64,000 bases of DNA, taken from the NCBI RefSeq assembly GCF_945873775.1, contig NZ_CAMCEC010000002.1, positions 62,001 to 126,000 on the forward strand, in the 5' to 3' direction. Under the pieces are notes generated by a model, which was not told the origin of the DNA, made no database searches, and saw only the letters and a list, made by a program, of their open reading frames with translations. A program made the translations under genes and the position numbers. Shown here one piece after another: positions 50,338 to 57,884 of the stretch (position 1 is the stretch's first letter; every line of letters begins with the position of its first letter). The DNA comes from an uncultured Treponema sp. Lineage in GTDB: Bacteria; Spirochaetota; Spirochaetia; Treponematales; Treponemataceae.

Positions 50338-50850
50338 TTACATTCTCAATAATTTTTTTGCATATTGACGGTACATACCTGTAGCGAGCGATTCATATTC
50401 TTGTGAATAACACCAATCTATAAAGAAATCAGATAACTGCTCTGCAGTAATAAAGACTGAATTATTTAATTGATATGAACATTTTTTACAATCATCTTTT
50501 TTATGAAAAAAACGAACAATTTTGATAATATTTGTACCATCAGAAATAACTCTTTTGTAGTTTTTTTTCAGTTCTGTTTCATCTGAATATTTTGTATCAA
50601 GGTTGTTTTCAAAAAGAACTCCCTTGTTTGCACGTTGAATAAAAAGAAAAGTTTGTTTTTCATTTGTTGTGTATTCAATATTTTCCAAATCTGAACAAAA
50701 AACATTTGTTTCGTCTTCTGTTAATCCAATAAAATTATAAAACTGTTTATAAAAATTTTCTGTAACTTGTAAATCTGAGACTGTGTAGCTGCGGCTTAAC
50801 AATGAAAATAAAATCTCACTGTGAAAATTTTTCCATTCTAAATGTTTCAT
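50338..50850 (-). CDS. Hypothetical protein, last gene of the WYL island
   Basis: About 170 residues, no recognised family, no signal or membrane segment. Cys pair DDCKKCSY and an aromatic C-terminal part (FFIDWCYSQEYESLATG). The ATG at 50850 is selected because GGGAGA lies 8 bases upstream; the frame is open to 50916. AT-rich like the rest of the island, and 101 bases downstream of the FlhA-like gene in the same direction. Confidence 0.55.
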   Translation of the reverse strand: MKHLEWKNFHSEILFSLLSRSYTVSDLQVTENFYKQFYNFIGLTEDETNVFCSDLENIEYTTNEKQTFLFIQRANKGVLFENNLDTKYSDETELKKNYKRVISDGTNIIKIVRFFHKKDDCKKCSYQLNNSVFITAEQLSDFFIDWCYSQEYESLATGMYRQYAKKLLRM

Positions 50851-50951
50851 ATTATTCTCCCATCTTATTGATATAAAATTATCTCGCCTAAATAATTGAT
50901 ATATGTAGTCATACAAAACGCAAGCATAATTTTTGAAGATGTTTCTTTTTA

Positions 50952-51731
50952 TTACGTTTGTTCACTTTTGCTCCAGAAACAAGTAATTGCAAAAAGAACA
51001 AACAAGACAATAAAAGGATATGCTGCGCCAATTGTTAATGGAATATTTTTACCAAAAGCTTCCGAGAGGATTAGTTTACGAATATACATATCAGAACCTA
51101 TTCCAGCAAAAAAATGAATTGCAGTTAAGATAATATAAGCAACCATGCATTTGAAAACTGTTTTGAATACACCGTCACGATCTGAATAATAATCTGCATT
51201 TGATTTTATCTTTTCTCTTTCATAAACTGCTTGTTCTTCTGTTAATTGAGTTTTCTTTAATCTGTTATCAATATCAATGAACATTGTATTTAATGTATCT
51301 TGAGAGAATTCTTTATGTGCCTCTGAAATATGCCGACAGGTAATACCTAAGATTGAAATCACCAAATAACTGACAATAATTAAATTTGAAAAAGCAGCTG
51401 TTATTTCATCATTTGTGCCAAGTTTGAATTCAGCTAGTTTTACTATCAGAAGATGAACATTTGATTCATGGGCTAAAAGGGTAATATGAATTACTTGGAT
51501 ATAAACAATCAATGCAAAAATTGTCAATAATTCCAAAACATCCAGTTTGATTTTTCTTTTCCTGATAAGAGCACAAATAATTATGGACAATAGGAAAAAC
51601 CCGAAAACTATTATTTCACCTAATAGTTTTGGATATGCAAACAAAATAAGAGACAAAGGAAATAAAACTCCTGCAATAATTGCGAATAATGCTTTAAAAT
51701 AATTAGTAATTGAAATAAAAAAAATTTTCAT
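50952..51731 (-). CDS. FlhA/FHIPEP-like membrane protein without the cytoplasmic domain
   Basis: 259 residues, about six membrane segments. Residues 151-196 (IDIDNRLKKTQLTEEQA, ADYYSDRDGVFKTVF) match the FlhA/SctV loop pattern of a D-x-D-L run, EEA, basic residues, ADFYGxMDGAxKFV; the following membrane segment and LSEA...PLTIG (222-235) match the next FlhA segment. The N-terminal segments and basic RKRK loop also fit. The large cytoplasmic domain of FlhA is absent and no other export genes are near. So this is a stand-alone relative of the export-gate membrane domain with an unknown job, inside a regulated accessory island. Confidence 0.65.
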   Translation of the reverse strand: MKIFFISITNYFKALFAIIAGVLFPLSLILFAYPKLLGEIIVFGFFLLSIIICALIRKRKIKLDVLELLTIFALIVYIQVIHITLLAHESNVHLLIVKLAEFKLGTNDEITAAFSNLIIVSYLVISILGITCRHISEAHKEFSQDTLNTMFIDIDNRLKKTQLTEEQAVYEREKIKSNADYYSDRDGVFKTVFKCMVAYIILTAIHFFAGIGSDMYIRKLILSEAFGKNIPLTIGAAYPFIVLFVLFAITCFWSKSEQT

Positions 51732-51808: not shown

Positions 51809-52357
51809 TTAAACCGCCAATTGAGAATTTACGTATATTCTTGTTGCGATATAAACAACAACAGTCTGCTCACATTGGCTTCGAAAGGCGATTTCTGAAT
51901 AAATTTTTGATGTTTTACAATGTTTTTTATTCTTATCAAAATTATCGAGAATACATAAAGTTGGCAAATTAAGTTTACTTACTTGTTCTTTTAAACTTTC
52001 AAAATCTGATAATCGCTTATTCTTAATGAAGAAACTTTCCTTGCCATTTCTTTCTAACCGACGGGTAATGATTATATCTTCATCAGACGGCTCACATTTT
52101 TCACCATAAAATAACGACACCTCGGCAAAGTCTGCTTTTTGCAATTCTTCGTTACCTTGAAAAAGAATTTTATCTACAAACTTCTTTGGTGTATTGTTAT
52201 CGAATAAAACCCAATTTATAGCACTAAAAAGATTTGATTTTCCACAGCCGGATGGACCAAATACTATATTTAGGTTTTTCTGTAATTCAACTGTTGCGGA
52301 TTTACTAAAAGTTTTGTAACCAATAAGGTTCACTTTTTTCAGATAAATCTTGCTCAT
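51809..52357 (-). CDS. SMC/RecF-like ATPase, N-terminal half only
   Basis: 182 residues. Starts like SMC proteins: KVNLIGYKTFSKSATVEL, Walker A GPSGCGKSN (residues 34-42) and LFSAINWVLFD. Coiled coil, ABC signature and Walker B are missing, and the last 25 residues (SQCEQTVVVYIATRIYVNSQ) do not look like SMC. It is either a truncated gene or a short ATP-binding partner. The ATG at 52357 has AAGGTGG upstream; the frame is open to 52384. Sits between the secreted protein and FlhA-like genes. Confidence 0.65.
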   Translation of the reverse strand: MSKIYLKKVNLIGYKTFSKSATVELQKNLNIVFGPSGCGKSNLFSAINWVLFDNNTPKKFVDKILFQGNEELQKADFAEVSLFYGEKCEPSDEDIIITRRLERNGKESFFIKNKRLSDFESLKEQVSKLNLPTLCILDNFDKNKKHCKTSKIYSEIAFRSQCEQTVVVYIATRIYVNSQLAV

Positions 52358-52417: not shown

Positions 52418-52828
52418 TTACAGTTTCAATTTTTTAGCTATTGCAGCTATATCTTTTTTGTAAAGCCAGATACCAATAACTGGATTCTGTTGATAAACAG
52501 CTCTTCCAGAAAGGAATCCAACGATTGATGGATTTTTCTGGTCTTCTATGATGTAAATTACATCACCAGATTCCATAAAAGGCTGATTATTGATTACAGA
52601 TTTACCGCCTTGTTCAGAATCGATTTTTGCTTTTGTGGAAGTAAACTGTGATTTAGGGATTGTGATACGGTTTATATAACCGCCAAATAAAGTTTCTTCA
52701 ATGACAATAAAATCACCATTGAGAGTAATTGTACATGGCGTTTTATCCGCAGTTTTCAGCTCGAACTTTTGTGCAAATACTGCTGAAGCAATAAGCAACA
52801 GCCCCAACAAAGAAATGAGTTTTTTCAT
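52418..52828 (-). CDS. Small exported protein of the WYL island
   Basis: 136 residues with a clear signal peptide (MKKLISLLGLLLIASAVFAQ). The mature part is a small beta protein (KFELKTADKTPCTITLNGDF...), no family recognised. GGAGG ribosome site, preceded by a small GTTGC/GCAAC hairpin. Transcribed from its own operator-bearing promoter (52878-52913) and possibly reading on into the SMC-like, FlhA-like and last genes. Confidence 0.7.
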   Translation of the reverse strand: MKKLISLLGLLLIASAVFAQKFELKTADKTPCTITLNGDFIVIEETLFGGYINRITIPKSQFTSTKAKIDSEQGGKSVINNQPFMESGDVIYIIEDQKNPSIVGFLSGRAVYQQNPVIGIWLYKKDIAAIAKKLKL

Positions 52829-52874: not shown

Positions 52875-52913
52875 ACTTATAACAGATTCCGCTATCATAT
52901 CGCGATAGCGGAA
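52875..52913 (-). promoter_or_regulatory. WYL-type operator and promoter of the exported-protein gene
   Basis: CTATC-N7-GATAG (52892-52908) sits in a longer perfect palindrome TTCCGCTATC / GATAGCGGAA (52887-52913). On the minus strand GATAG is followed by 7 bases, then TGT and the -10 TATAAG, an extended -10 promoter. Same spacing as at 53258, 54138 and 55386. Confidence 0.75.
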
Positions 52914-52923
52914 AAAAATATTT

Positions 52924-53208
52924 TTAAATTTTTGAAAATCTTGATTTTTCACCAAATTTAGATAATTTAACCTCAGTATATCTATAAGCTAATTCAAAGA
53001 CATTTTCTTTGCTCTTATCTTTTGCTTGAATCAGTATTGGTGAATCATCTTGTTTTGCCATATTAAGTATTGCCGAATAAATCTTTTCATCACCAATTGC
53101 ACAATACTTAGCAAGCACTTCTCCTATTACAGTAGCAGAAGATACACATCTGGATTTTCCGCCACATTTTGACAATGCTTGTATGATACTCATTTCAATT
53201 CCAGTCAT
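52924..53208 (-). CDS. Small hypothetical protein
   Basis: 94 residues, probably helical with a basic C terminus (KLSKFGEKSRFSKI); the fold could be a winged helix, but this is a guess. GGAGG ribosome site before ATG. Has its own operator-bearing promoter. No family recognised. Confidence 0.6.
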   Translation of the reverse strand: MTGIEMSIIQALSKCGGKSRCVSSATVIGEVLAKYCAIGDEKIYSAILNMAKQDDSPILIQAKDKSKENVFELAYRYTEVKLSKFGEKSRFSKI

Positions 53209-53221
53209 ATTAGCCTCCGTA

Positions 53222-53256
53222 AAAAAAATGCACTGTGATAGAAAATACCACAGTGC
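53222..53256 (-). terminator. Terminator after the 53285 gene, overlapping the next promoter
   Basis: Stem GCACTGTG / CACAGTGC (53230-53256) followed on the minus strand by ATTTTTTTT. It ends the 54100-53285 gene, but the hairpin also contains the TGG-TATTTT extended -10 of the next gene. Confidence 0.65.
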
Positions 53257-53277
53257 TCTATCATATCGCGATAACGG
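53240..53277 (-). promoter_or_regulatory. WYL-type operator and promoter of the 53208 gene
   Basis: CTATCATATCGCGATAA on the + strand at 53258-53274, nearly identical over 21 bases to the copy at 52891. On the minus strand the first half-site (GATAG) is followed by 7 bases, TGG, then -10 TATTTT. Confidence 0.7.
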
Positions 53278-53284
53278 AGAAAAT

Positions 53285-54100
53285 TTATTTTCTGTTTTTA
53301 TTGAATAATACTTTCATAACAGGATTATAATAACAGTATTTGTCGCTTTTCTTGGCGGAAAAGTGATATAAGTCTATGAAATCAATCATTTTGCCATTTA
53401 AATTATACTTACCATATTCAGCGACACTTTCTCCATCATGGATAATGTGTTTGGTTTCTGGAAAATTTGACTCTGACAAACAAAGATTCATATACTCTTT
53501 TTCAATAATGTCCCATAAATTTGCGGTGATAATAACATCTGGATCTAAAATCTCTAATTCTTTTTGAAAGAAATTTGTTTTTTCCAGTTCAGAATCTTTT
53601 AAGAAGCGGTGAACTAAATTAACGTTTGTCTGCCAATTGTTTTCATCATCATTGCTGTATTTTGAAATATTGATTGAAGCAAAACCATACTTATTAGTAT
53701 CATACATTTCGTTTAGTATTTCCAAAGCATCTGGAATTTCTTCAAACTTATATTCACCCTTAGTTTTAATTCCATAGATGATATAAAGAAGATGCCGCCA
53801 CCAGTTATTGTTATTGCTATAATATTCTTCAAAAAACTCTTTAGTGGTATCTCTGAAATCATAGCCACCAATTAAACGAGTTTCTCGTCCGATAAAGCAA
53901 ACTTTTAAATTGTTTCCATCAAAATAACCAGGAAAGAAACCATCTTTTGCAAAGCAAGCAGCTGGTGAAGTTTTATCTTTGTTCCCATTATCTATGGGAG
54001 TTTTATTTTTTGAAAGCTGCTTTATCCAATCAGAGAACAAGGATTCAAGTTCTTTATTTTTCTGTTTTTCAAAGTCTGAATACTTAAATTTTTTAGACAT
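53285..54100 (-). CDS. Hypothetical protein, possible uracil-DNA-glycosylase-fold member
   Basis: 271 residues. KVCFIGRETRLIGG, FASINISKYSN, ILDPDVIITANLWDII and FIDLYHFSAKK fall in the order and spacing of UDG-superfamily strands (an FxGxEP-like turn, an aromatic/Asn motif, a LxPxVI motif and a final H-containing motif). The match is weak; the catalytic Asp/Asn is not identified. A role on damaged or modified DNA is only a hypothesis. AGAGG ribosome site. Own operator-bearing promoter. Confidence 0.55.
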   Translation of the reverse strand: MSKKFKYSDFEKQKNKELESLFSDWIKQLSKNKTPIDNGNKDKTSPAACFAKDGFFPGYFDGNNLKVCFIGRETRLIGGYDFRDTTKEFFEEYYSNNNNWWRHLLYIIYGIKTKGEYKFEEIPDALEILNEMYDTNKYGFASINISKYSNDDENNWQTNVNLVHRFLKDSELEKTNFFQKELEILDPDVIITANLWDIIEKEYMNLCLSESNFPETKHIIHDGESVAEYGKYNLNGKMIDFIDLYHFSAKKSDKYCYYNPVMKVLFNKNRK

Positions 54101-54117
54101 AAATTCTGAACCTCTAA

Positions 54118-54155
54118 AAAAATGATAACAGATAATGCTATCAAATCATGATAGA
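54118..54155 (-). promoter_or_regulatory. WYL-type operator and promoter of the 54100 gene
   Basis: CTATC-AAATCAT-GATAG at 54138-54154. On the minus strand GATAG is followed by 7 bases, TGT and -10 TATCAT, the same layout as the other three copies. Confidence 0.75.
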
Positions 54156-54162
54156 AAAGAAA

Positions 54163-55332
54163 TTATTTTGGAAAGTTTGGGTCATTTAATACTTCATTTA
54201 TACAATTACACAAATAATCTCTGAACTCTCCATTAACAATCGCTTGGGCTACACATAAATCCCATCTCAGATATTTTGAATCTAAATATTTAGAGCCGAA
54301 CGGAGTACCTTTTGATGACTTATATTCCATACATTCTAACTTTGTTTGAAGAGTTGTAATACCTTTTTTTTCAAGATAATAATATGGTGAATCTCCTTTT
54401 TCTTTGCCAAACCATATTTTAATATCTGGATTATTTTTCGGTATAAAAGCTACCCAGCAATCATTATCCCAAAGCCACCATGGATATGATTCATTATCAC
54501 CTTTACATTCACAATCTGTTTTTTTCGCAACTTCTTTTATTACTTGTTCAGCAATGCTGTAAATCCAATTATCCCAATTTTCCCAAATTGCTAACATTTC
54601 TAGATTATGATTCAACATTTGTTGCGTAATATTTTTATCCATAGTTTGATTAAGCTCCTGACCTGTAAGTTTTAAAATTAAATTTTGATATTGTTTTATA
54701 CAACCATTAATAAGTGGAAAGCTATTTGAAATATCTAAACATCTTTTAAGCCATTTAAATATTTCATTTTTATATGAAATACATTCCCAATAATGCTCTT
54801 CTGTTTTTAAACCTGTAGACCATGAAGAAGGTTCATGTCCATCTTTTGTTAAATAAAACAGAGTAAAACTATGATTTAGATGTTTAGCATAATTATTATA
54901 ACGAGCTAATTGTGCTTCTTGATCTCCAGCATCAATTTTATTTTCTATGATAATCGTGTAATTGGGAGAGAAAAAATTAATTAGAATATCAATATCTCCG
55001 CCAGTTTCTTTTATAACATCTTTTTTGCCAATATATTCTTCTTTTTTTACGATTGCGGATTTAGTATTTAATGTAGTAACATCTATATCATTCAATGGAA
55101 TGTATTGTATAAATAATCTTAAAAATTCATCTTTTAATCCATGAGAACCTTTTGGATTTAACAATTCTGCAATAAATGATGAATGTGTATGAACTTCATC
55201 CCTTTCCATATTTAATATGGAGAAAATATTAAAAAATTCACCCTTTAATTCTTTCTCTTTTCGTTGTTTTTGATTTTCAATCACAAATGGTTTGATTGAT
55301 TGGAATAACGGTTCTAAACTTACTTCAACCAT
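54163..55332 (-). CDS. PD-(D/E)XK nuclease superfamily protein (PDDEXK_4-like)
   Basis: 389 residues. N-terminal HTHSSFIAELLNPKGSHGLK is the pattern seen at the start of this nuclease family. The core is TGGDIDILINFF (Asp113/Asp115) and IIIENKIDAGDQEAQLARYN (Glu130-Asn-Lys132, the ExK), i.e. a complete PD-(D/E)XK site. The C-terminal half has aromatic WLWDNDCWVAFIP-type segments of unknown role. Such proteins are common in defence islands. ATG at 55332 chosen because a TATAAT lies 6 bases upstream (leaderless); the open frame reaches 55446, across the operator. Confidence 0.85.
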   Translation of the reverse strand: MVEVSLEPLFQSIKPFVIENQKQRKEKELKGEFFNIFSILNMERDEVHTHSSFIAELLNPKGSHGLKDEFLRLFIQYIPLNDIDVTTLNTKSAIVKKEEYIGKKDVIKETGGDIDILINFFSPNYTIIIENKIDAGDQEAQLARYNNYAKHLNHSFTLFYLTKDGHEPSSWSTGLKTEEHYWECISYKNEIFKWLKRCLDISNSFPLINGCIKQYQNLILKLTGQELNQTMDKNITQQMLNHNLEMLAIWENWDNWIYSIAEQVIKEVAKKTDCECKGDNESYPWWLWDNDCWVAFIPKNNPDIKIWFGKEKGDSPYYYLEKKGITTLQTKLECMEYKSSKGTPFGSKYLDSKYLRWDLCVAQAIVNGEFRDYLCNCINEVLNDPNFPK

Positions 55333-55338
55333 ATATTT

Positions 55339-55418
55339 ATTATAACACAATATCACAATCTTATTATGAAAAATTAATTCTTCCGCTATCACGAAATGAT
55401 AGCGAACCGTGCTATAAT
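55339..55418. promoter_or_regulatory. Divergent operator-promoter region between nuclease and WYL genes
   Basis: CTATC-ACGAAAT-GATAG at 55386-55402 within CCGCTATC/GATAGCG. Rightward: 7 bases, TGC, then TATAAT at 55413-55418, 6 bases from the WYL ATG. Leftward: TGT-TATAAT (55344-55339) ends 6 bases from the nuclease ATG. Both genes appear leaderless. The site suggests autoregulation by the WYL protein. Confidence 0.75.
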
Positions 55419-55424
55419 AACAAT

Positions 55425-56462
55425 ATGGAACAGAAACAACAGACACGCCAGTTGAATAAAAAAATGCTTGAAAGACTTATTATTATTCACAATGCTATTA
55501 AATCAGGACTTTATCCCGACAACCTGTGCTTGCAGCGGCTTTATTGTGAGCAGACAGGCTACAGCAAAGTCGGAGAGGCTACAATCAACCGCGACATTGA
55601 TATGCTTCGTACCTATTTTAATGCGCCTTTGGAGTTTGACCGGCAGAAAGGCGGCTATTATTACAGTGATGATAATTTTGAGTTCGCGCTGAACAATATT
55701 TCTTCCGAAGATGTTTTTTATCTTTCAGCCGCAAAAACATTGCTTTCTAGTTTTGAAGGCAGCCCTGTCTATAAGGCGATTTCTGATGTCATTGATTTTG
55801 TTATCGACACACAAAGAATTGGGAAAAGCAGCCTTTTGAAAAGAATCGCAGTTCCGCCAGTTCCAAAAGTTATAACAGATGAAGAAGTATGGAAAAAAGT
55901 TTTGCGTTCTTTGCAAGAAAACCTGATTGTCGAATTTGACTACAACGGCAGATGGAATTCCGAAACAACACGCCGTCGGATTGCTCCGTACCAGATTCTT
56001 ATGGATGACGGAATGTGCTTTTTATTCGGTTATGATTTGAACAAAGATGCTGAAAGAATGTTTTACTTAAACAGGATCAAAAATCTTATTATTACACAAG
56101 AGCATTTTGATTTGCCGGAAGATTTTGAATTTCATTCAAGAAGTGGCGGCGGAAAGTTTGGAGCGTTTATGACAGAAGATTCTGTTGATTTTGTAATCGA
56201 TTTTTACGGCGATGCAAGACAATATGTGAAAGATTGTATTTGGGCGGATAACCAAAAAATTACAGATATAGCGAAAGAAGAAAAAACGAGAATTGAATTT
56301 TCTGCTGCACAGTGGCTAAAGGTGAAAGAATGGATTCTGGCACAGGGAGAAAACGCAATACCGAGAAGTCCGCAGTGGTTTGTGGATAGTTGGAAGAATA
56401 CTGTTTTAGAGATGAACGAAAATCTTAAACCTTTTTATTCCGCCAGAAACGGCACGAGATAA
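55425..56462 (+). CDS. WYL-domain transcription regulator
   Basis: 345 residues. Winged helix-turn-helix at the N terminus (LIIIHNAIKSGLYPDNLCLQ, TINRDIDMLRTYF), then a WYL ligand domain: LIVEFDYNGRWNSETTRR, IAPYQILMDDGMCFLFGYD, MFYLNRIKNLII, and a WCX C-terminal extension. Relatives BrxR and CapW repress phage-defence operons by binding inverted repeats and sense a nucleotide-like ligand. Divergent from the nuclease gene; likely ligand-responsive controller of the CTATC-N7-GATAG promoters. Ends overlapping the convergent DUF4143 gene by 28 bases. Confidence 0.9.
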   Translation: MEQKQQTRQLNKKMLERLIIIHNAIKSGLYPDNLCLQRLYCEQTGYSKVGEATINRDIDMLRTYFNAPLEFDRQKGGYYYSDDNFEFALNNISSEDVFYLSAAKTLLSSFEGSPVYKAISDVIDFVIDTQRIGKSSLLKRIAVPPVPKVITDEEVWKKVLRSLQENLIVEFDYNGRWNSETTRRRIAPYQILMDDGMCFLFGYDLNKDAERMFYLNRIKNLIITQEHFDLPEDFEFHSRSGGGKFGAFMTEDSVDFVIDFYGDARQYVKDCIWADNQKITDIAKEEKTRIEFSAAQWLKVKEWILAQGENAIPRSPQWFVDSWKNTVLEMNENLKPFYSARNGTR

Positions 56463-57766
56463 AACGGTTTCAGCAGCAGATTTTCTTCGTTTCCCACGTC
56501 TTTTTGTGATATTAAATATGCCTTGCTGATATTCTGCGAAAATTTCCTGCAAAATTCGCTTATTGATTCATGCTTTCCTGAGCCGGAAGATTTAATTTCA
56601 AACGCATCTATTTTGCTTCCGTCGGAAATCAGAAAATCGACCTCGTAATAATGAGTGCTTCCGGATTTTTCCCAAGTGTGATAATAAAGTTCCCTTCCGG
56701 ACGCTGCAATCATCTGCGCAACAAGATTTTCATAGAGATAGCCAAGATTCGCCGGCAATTTATCCGAAAGAAGTTTTGCGTAAAGTTTATTTTCCGTCAC
56801 CGGTCGGTCAATAAACATCAGCGTTACAAACAAACCTGTGTCGGAAAGATACAATTTATAGCTGTTGAAGTCCTTTGTGTCGGCAAGGCTTGCTCTTGGA
56901 TTTGTGGAATTGTAGCACGGAAGAATTGTCTTGGAATCGATTAGCTCATACAGCAATTCATCCGCTTTGGTGTTATTTCTTTTTCCGATTGCCGTGGTAA
57001 TCCTGTATTTTCTTGCGTCCTTTGCCAGCTGAGCCGGAACCGCATGATACAATGCCGATATTCTTCCCGATGGATCAATCTTTTTGAAATCCTCTTCATA
57101 AAGACTGATTATCTGCCTTTTTATCATGTCAATTTCCGAAAAATTCTTTCCATTTATATATGCTTCTACCGCCTGAGGCATTCCGCCCACCGCCATGTAA
57201 ACTCTCAAATCCCTCATCAGTTTGCGGTTTGTCGCCTGACCGATTGCTCTTTTGGAACCGAAAATCTGACGCAGAAGCTCAAAATTTCCTCCTGTCGCAT
57301 CGCAGAATTCCTCGTAATCCATAGGAAAAACCTGAATTTTCATTTCCTCTGACGGAATCAGAATGTCCTTTACATTTTTCCGTATCGAAATGAGCGAGCC
57401 GGTCTCAAGATAACTGTATCTTCCGTCCGCCACGAGGTGCTTAATTGCCTGACGCGCCTTCGGAAAAAGCTGCACCTCGTCAAAAATTATCAGAGACTCA
57501 TGTTCATAAAGCGTTGTTCCTGTTTCCGCCTGAAGACGCAGAAAAAACACATCAGGATTTCCTATATCGTCAAAACATTCAAGAATATTTGCTGACGACT
57601 TCGAAAAATCTATCAGAATGTGCGATTTGTATTCATTTTTGGCAAAGTTTTCCGCAATGGTCGATTTTCCGACACGCCTCGCGCCTTCTAGCATGACAGC
57701 ATATTCAGAGGAATAATTCTTTTTCCATTCCAAAAGTTTTTGGTAGGCTTTTCTTTCAAAATACAT
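56435..57766 (-). CDS. AAA ATPase with C-terminal DUF4143 domain
   Basis: 443 residues. Walker A GARRVGKST, Walker B SLIIFDEVQLFP, a TGSLISIRKN sensor region, then FPMDYEEFCDATGG and the DUF4143 part (GYLYENLVAQMIAASGRELY, SDGSKIDAFEIKSSG), which resembles a PD-(D/E)XK fold (E...DFL...EIK). A common accessory family whose role is unknown. ATG at 57766 has GGGGTG upstream. Three direct repeats lie upstream. Confidence 0.88.
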   Translation of the reverse strand: MYFERKAYQKLLEWKKNYSSEYAVMLEGARRVGKSTIAENFAKNEYKSHILIDFSKSSANILECFDDIGNPDVFFLRLQAETGTTLYEHESLIIFDEVQLFPKARQAIKHLVADGRYSYLETGSLISIRKNVKDILIPSEEMKIQVFPMDYEEFCDATGGNFELLRQIFGSKRAIGQATNRKLMRDLRVYMAVGGMPQAVEAYINGKNFSEIDMIKRQIISLYEEDFKKIDPSGRISALYHAVPAQLAKDARKYRITTAIGKRNNTKADELLYELIDSKTILPCYNSTNPRASLADTKDFNSYKLYLSDTGLFVTLMFIDRPVTENKLYAKLLSDKLPANLGYLYENLVAQMIAASGRELYYHTWEKSGSTHYYEVDFLISDGSKIDAFEIKSSGSGKHESISEFCRKFSQNISKAYLISQKDVGNEENLLLKPFYLVPFLAE

Positions 57767-57790
57767 AATTACACCCCGGATATAATTATG

Positions 57791-57884
57791 TTGTATCATA
57801 AAATGTGCGTTTCTTCAATTTGTATACATGTCATTTTGTGCATTTCTTCAAGATTGTATAAGCAAAAATTATGCTTTTCTTCAA
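57791..57884. repeat. Three iteron-like direct repeats upstream of the DUF4143 gene
   Basis: TTGTATA...TGC...TTTCTTCAA units at 57791-57818, 57820-57851 and 57854-57884, all in one orientation and about 32 bases apart, filling the space between the DUF4143 start and the SirTM stop. They look like tandem protein-binding sites over the promoter. Confidence 0.75.

Follow-up and report, generated by a model that had tools for sequence, protein, structure and literature searches.

A fixed operator-promoter layout beside WYL genes of Treponema and its probable control by WYL proteins

The window analysed here, a stretch of 64,000 nucleotides from an uncultured Treponema sp., raises the question of which protein reads a palindrome found at four of its promoters, and whether that protein turns the genes on or off. 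Copies of CTATC-N7-GATAG lie at 52892, 53258 (with one mismatch), 54138 and 55386, each at 7 nt from an extended -10 element. Putative WYL operator 1 (52892..52908, reverse strand) has the arrangement CTATCGCGATATGATAG-CGGAATC-TGT-TATAAG, in which TATAAG (52876..52881, reverse strand) and its TGT extension form the promoter of the probable operon that begins at 52828. On the same strand, putative operators 2 (53258..53274) and 3 (54138..54154) give TTATCGCGATATGATAG-AGCACTG-TGG-TATTTT and CTATCATGATTTGATAG-CATTATC-TGT-TATCAT, with the TGG-extended and TGT-extended -10 hexamers at 53242..53247 and 54122..54127, respectively. Putative operator 4 (55386..55402, forward strand) continues as CTATCACGAAATGATAG-CGAACCG-TGC-TATAAT; its -10 (55413..55418, forward strand) belongs to the gene of a WYL regulator, whose ATG follows 6 nt 3' at 55425. 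Taking the -10 hexamer as -12 to -7, the palindrome is centred at about -31 in all four promoters. The positions and the exact gap, as given in a preliminary description of this DNA, hold to the base, and so does its placing of the centre near -31. The half-sites proposed there are present but too short, extending to CTATCA-N5-TGATAG.

Four palindromes with at most one mismatch stand against 0.73 expected in the window, a number attained by one of 100 shuffles. A -10 of this quality occurs at any one spacing in about 0.7% of random positions, so that the fixed 7-nt spacing is evidence additional to the palindrome count. Operators 1 and 2 are identical at 16 of 17 bases, and the 7-nt spacers of the four operators are unlike one another.

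The preliminary description had proposed a genome scan and held that a motif frequent at random sites would speak against a regulon; scans of the host genome and of the genus did not give that outcome. In the host genome (2.59 Mb, 49 contigs) perfect copies of CTATC-N7-GATAG occur only at WYL loci: three of the five lie in the window cluster and two at a second WYL locus on contig C1. The one-mismatch palindrome is not specific genome-wide (17 other matches vs 15 for the reversed control), and we dropped it as evidence on its own. One of the C1 sites stands immediately 5' of a WYL paralogue that is 54% identical to the window protein, P0001. This second locus (L016) repeats the layout four times with a gap of 8 nt in place of 7, at the promoters of a DnaQ-like exonuclease, a secreted-protein gene (with a weak left half), an AAA+ ATPase and the WYL gene. 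The spacing of 7 nt first described is thus found at all four window sites, but 8 nt is permitted as well and is the norm at the C1 locus. With two WYL paralogues in this genome, each having sites of its own, the signal does not belong to one protein alone across the genome. On the upstream side of the second cluster stands a D5-type primase/helicase gene (L016:1861-3300), which suggests that the cluster lies inside a phage- or plasmid-like element.

The layout recurs throughout the genus. Relatives of P0001 (E<=1e-40) were found in 53 of 146 genomes of the genus, those with names being from Treponema or Spirochaetaceae MAGs, and most have the palindrome 5' of the WYL gene. A strict pattern of site plus promoter gave 56 matches in 35 of the 146 genomes, and its reversed version none; most of the relatives come from metagenome assemblies, target starts were assigned by script, and the sampled sites are not independent of each other. 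Some sites that the script called in the opposite palindrome direction (for example L058 8202- and L059 6558+) were set aside as by-products of palindrome symmetry. Outside the genus the strict pattern is rare. Two matches in another family of the class (L135 and L136, genomes G229 and G270) stand beside a WYL gene that has the palindrome in its promoter and shares 65-66% protein identity with a genus member, which suggests horizontal transfer.

Across 42 loci, comprising the window, L016 and 40 regions around relatives, the distance from palindrome to extended -10 was 7 nt in 52 cases and 8 nt in 23, with at most 3 cases at any other distance between 0 and 21 where about 1.5 are expected per distance. 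In a further set of regions with the palindrome, 13 cases fell at 7 nt and 8 at 8 nt, and no other distance had more than 4. The scan scored TG and -10 jointly and by its construction favours good extended -10 elements, so the finding is the peak at 7/8 nt and the frequency of TG is not independent evidence. We dropped the idea that 7 or 8 nt strictly tracks the WYL clade, since several loci mix both. The extended -10 elements are close to consensus (TGN-TATAAT), the spacer between palindrome and -10 is not conserved in sequence, and a -35 sought at 16-18 bp reached a mean best match of 2.45 of 6, compared with 2.58 in random AT-rich sequence.

P0001 (55425..56462, forward strand, 345 aa) is predicted, from a model of low confidence, to combine an N-terminal HTH, a WYL domain and a C-terminal domain in a single chain. 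Foldseek placed DriD first for this model (E=1.7e-12), followed by PafBC and then BrxR and CapW; the AlphaFold model is poor (pLDDT 61, pTM 0.31), so these matches reflect local similarity. The profile ranking, which draws mainly on the WYL domain, was PafBC, DriD, CapW and BrxR. Overall, DriD and PafBC score better than BrxR and CapW.

DriD is the WYL activator of an SOS-independent DNA damage response in Caulobacter crescentus (PMC12340889, PMC4211646). Its consensus, ATACGAC-N7-GTCGTAT, straddles the -35, keeps an unvarying distance from the -10 and comes with a conserved G-14 (PMC12340889, cryo-EM preprint). When positions are numbered from the inner end of the downstream half, G falls at 14 and the -10 at 16-21 in the three DriD cryo-EM promoters (PMC12340889); the 7-nt class described here (GATAG-N7-TGN-TATAAT) is in the same register, and the 8-nt class is off by 1. 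The likeness extends to the domain order (HTH, WYL, C-terminal domain), inverted half-sites 7 bp apart, a site lying across a missing -35, the G at -14 and several scattered promoters with a nuclease gene among them. The systems differ in the half-site, CTATCA/TGATAG here, and P0001 would therefore be DriD-like in its working, not an orthologue by site. They also differ in that the Treponema genomes carry several paralogues with local islands. The fixed layout, its recurrence across Treponema and its match to the DriD layout together indicate that one WYL protein very probably controls the four window promoters.

The preliminary description had left open repression or an activator that replaces -35 contacts. 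We favour the activator and consider it fairly probable that P0001 acts as DriD does, binding the palindromes as a homodimer and supplying the missing -35 contacts. The published DriD promoters have the same gap, position and G-14, the spacing here is fixed to about 1 bp, and the -35 is no better than random. In such a mechanism each half, CTATCA or TGATAG, would take one winged-helix domain, flanking the -35 position, and the dimer would straddle the spot where sigma region 4 normally reads the -35 hexamer. It would thereby provide contacts to RNA polymerase that extended -10 promoters without a -35 lack; a dimer-polymerase contact would account for a distance held to 7 (or 8) nt across a spacer that can have any sequence. 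From the site in its own promoter, the WYL gene would be expected to regulate itself. If DriD and PafBC are a guide, the WYL domain probably responds to bound ssDNA or another nucleic acid when DNA is damaged or a phage attacks. Some observations speak against activation: the near-consensus extended -10 elements might fire unaided, unlike the poor ones of DriD; the WYL gene has an in-register site, whereas DriD reportedly does not activate its own gene; and the 8-nt spacing occurs too. The geometry suggests that DriD-style activation without a -35 extends well beyond Caulobacter.

PafBC, the mycobacterial WYL heterodimer (PMC11804915), likewise activates promoters without -35 contact and is the best profile match of the P0001 WYL domain. 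It differs in that only PafB of the heterodimer reads the -26 promoter motif, in contrast to the symmetric palindrome seen here, and the window locus has one WYL protein of 345 aa and no heterodimer partner or fusion. Some relatives do have two neighbouring WYL genes: a second, distant one (27-31% identity to P0001) adjoins or lies near the first at L078:9737-11788, L080 and L091:7502-9629, and the tandem pair of L091 could form a heterodimer.

That the WYL dimer instead sits over the -35 region as a repressor, blocking RNA polymerase at a strong extended -10 and releasing on a signal like BrxR or CapW, seems unlikely to us, even though the same near-consensus TGN/-10 elements could fire alone and a site at the WYL gene itself is what an autorepressor would have. 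BrxR and CapW (PMC9122601, PMC9122588) are also WYL regulators beside defence genes with an operator at their own promoter; BrxR represses a phage defence island (PMC9122601), and the window cluster encodes a candidate defence nuclease. Occlusion, however, needs no constancy of spacing to about 1 bp over dozens of promoters. The BrxR operator lies downstream of the -10 and is an 11-bp repeat whose copies stand 5 bp apart, a geometry not found at the window sites, and P0001 resembles BrxR less in fold and profile than it does DriD and PafBC.

A MerR-like dual switch, in which the apo-protein would repress and the ligand-bound protein activate from the same site, is a quite improbable reading. 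Fixed spacing, absence of a -35 and autoregulation are compatible with both states, and SiwR of Mycobacterium smegmatis binds its operator ligand-free yet requires its WYL domain to activate (PMC10693628). The stretched distance between -10 and operator centre seen in MerR promoters is absent here. SiwR itself, also a WYL protein, activates from a palindrome placed between -35 and -10, but this palindrome has 19 bp and is described at one operon, and PMC10693628 does not describe a multi-promoter regulon.

The reader of the palindrome can also be approached through its distribution. The strict site is present in 28 of 53 genomes with a P0001 relative and in 7 of 93 without (Fisher p=1.4e-9), a value that, owing to the shared ancestry of loci, is too small. 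The seven site-bearing genomes that lack a relative at E<=1e-40 proved to be no exceptions, since a profile search finds a WYL protein of the family in every one, which brings the count to 35 of 35. The base 3' of GATAG is mostly T or C in the WYL clade of the window and A in other clades; at non-WYL promoters A occupies this flank in 2 of 20 cases in the window clade and 22 of 26 in other clades (p=5e-7; Mantel test against WYL clade, p=5e-4), although shared ancestry inflates the covariation and makes these p-values, too, smaller than they should be. The direction of the change is what an altered reading by the HTH would give. The regulon under a single WYL protein proposed at the outset is therefore well supported in its link to WYL, through recurrence at the WYL genes' own promoters, co-occurrence by genome and covariation of the flank. 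The same three observations make it very improbable that a transcription factor other than a WYL protein reads the palindrome. A chance repeat or copied DNA without regulatory role is almost certainly wrong, as the near-identity of operators 1 and 2, one of which may have been copied from the other, is outweighed by unlike spacers, by recurrence in the genus with an empty reversed control and by the 7/8-nt peaks in both sets of loci.

The promoter layout also informs us on where the WYL message starts. In 15 WYL genes, 13 of them from the window's clade, the ATG lies 6 or 7 nt past the -10, and a Shine-Dalgarno motif is absent. This distance would place the transcription start at the AUG or 1-2 bases from it, so that WYL mRNAs of the window's clade, where most genes have the ATG 6 nt after the -10, are probably leaderless. 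Other target genes mostly have 17-50 nt from -10 to start, plus a ribosome-binding site. The window nuclease gene (54163..55332, reverse strand; PDDEXK_4) has its own extended -10, TGT-TATAAT (hexamer 55339-55344, reverse strand), likewise 6 nt before the ATG, and its mRNA may be leaderless too. By location operator 4 does lie in the spacer common to the WYL and nuclease genes, as first noted, but it is 41 nt from this extended -10, outside the fixed register.

The nuclease, of the PD-(D/E)XK type, matches the PADLOC candidate-defence model PDC-S26 (E=4.9e-92) and is a predicted antiphage candidate. On the other side, the AAA_14/DUF4143 ATPase gene adjoining the WYL gene (56435-57799) matches the PADLOC candidate PDC-S01. 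Behind operator 1, the probable operon begins with P0005 (52418..52828, reverse strand), a protein of 136 aa with a signal peptide-like start whose orthologues in L060, L065, L066, L067 and L070 share its operator. Downstream on the same strand follow an SMC head fragment (51809..52357; SMC_N, E=3.5e-19 for a frame of 191 aa with the same end), an FlhA N-terminal membrane fragment of 259 aa (50952..51731; FHIPEP) and a protein of 173 aa without an assigned family (50338..50859), to which a protein with its own operator in L067 (site 5709) is similar by eye. Operator 2 precedes P0004 (52924..53208, reverse strand), a 94-aa GyrA/ParC winged-helix fragment that retains the RYTE motif around the catalytic tyrosine, the remainder of GyrA being missing. 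P0003 (53285..54100, reverse strand; 271 aa), behind operator 3, had no Pfam match and no useful PDB match; its orthologues in L058 and L059 have the operator. The host retains long genes for FlhA, SMC and GyrA elsewhere: a full-length FlhA on C1 is 27% identical to the FlhA fragment, and a long SMC-like frame on C6 33% identical to the SMC fragment.

Across the genus, the first genes behind the sites encode, besides WYL proteins, DnaQ-like exonucleases, AAA+ ATPases, PD-(D/E)XK nucleases, HD hydrolases, RtcB, Fic/Doc, ADP-ribosylglycohydrolase and LRR or ankyrin proteins. Many predicted targets are stand-alone pieces of cell-division, replication and flagellar proteins: in addition to the 94-aa GyrA winged helix of the window, a 90-aa GyrA C-terminal piece (L121), an FtsZ GTPase domain of 215 aa (L130), the DnaB C-terminal domain (L071, L121), the PHP part of DnaE (L071), the FlhA N-terminal part (L071, L079, L081) and the FliG C-terminal domain (L120), the last in an island with further genes for a FliI-like ATPase and for cytoplasmic domains of FlhA and FlhB. 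Extra FlhA copies are moderately enriched in genomes with the WYL protein (18 of 53 vs 12 of 93, p=0.005), a few of these counts being genes split between contigs.

The targets thus point to unusual stand-alone replication, division and flagellar pieces under stress- or defence-type control. It is conceivable, though doubtful, that multi-copy and probably mobile DriD-like activators switch on such truncated paralogues of the core machinery (GyrA pieces, FtsZ GTPase, DnaB C-terminal domain, DnaE PHP, SMC head, FlhA, FlhB and FliG domains) as a checkpoint or abortive-infection programme. The WYL domain would sense damaged or foreign DNA, and the pieces, for which dominant-negative or decoy action is possible, would halt division, replication or motility, or foil phage takeover. 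A literature search on truncated housekeeping paralogues or decoys in defence islands returned nothing on point. The nearest precedent is the work of Kaur and colleagues on conflict systems whose modules, typically inactive, are drawn from cellular subsystems (PMC7159879). Such systems, the MoxR-vWA type and its relatives, are a precedent for borrowed cell-division and housekeeping domains as effectors, and a MoxR-like ATPase occurs in L120; the Treponema islands differ in that each piece is a separate gene in an island with WYL promoters, and the window showed neither a vWA nor a VMAP core. We found no paper describing a WYL regulon in Treponema in the one literature library searched. The layout provides a promoter grammar for such a regulon in spirochaetes, which can be used to list the genes under each WYL paralogue.

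A run of overlapping genes in L120:12277-16785 (genome G015, contig C3) codes for two cytoplasmic domains of FlhA and two C-terminal domains of FlhB, an unusual set of soluble parts of the flagellar export machinery; adjoining them are a MoxR-like ATPase gene and a WYL gene that has an operator of its own. RtcB RNA ligase genes with a WYL-type promoter lie at L064:13630, L131:4071 and L132:11358, and in L064 and L131 a neighbouring Fic/Doc gene has a WYL-type promoter too.
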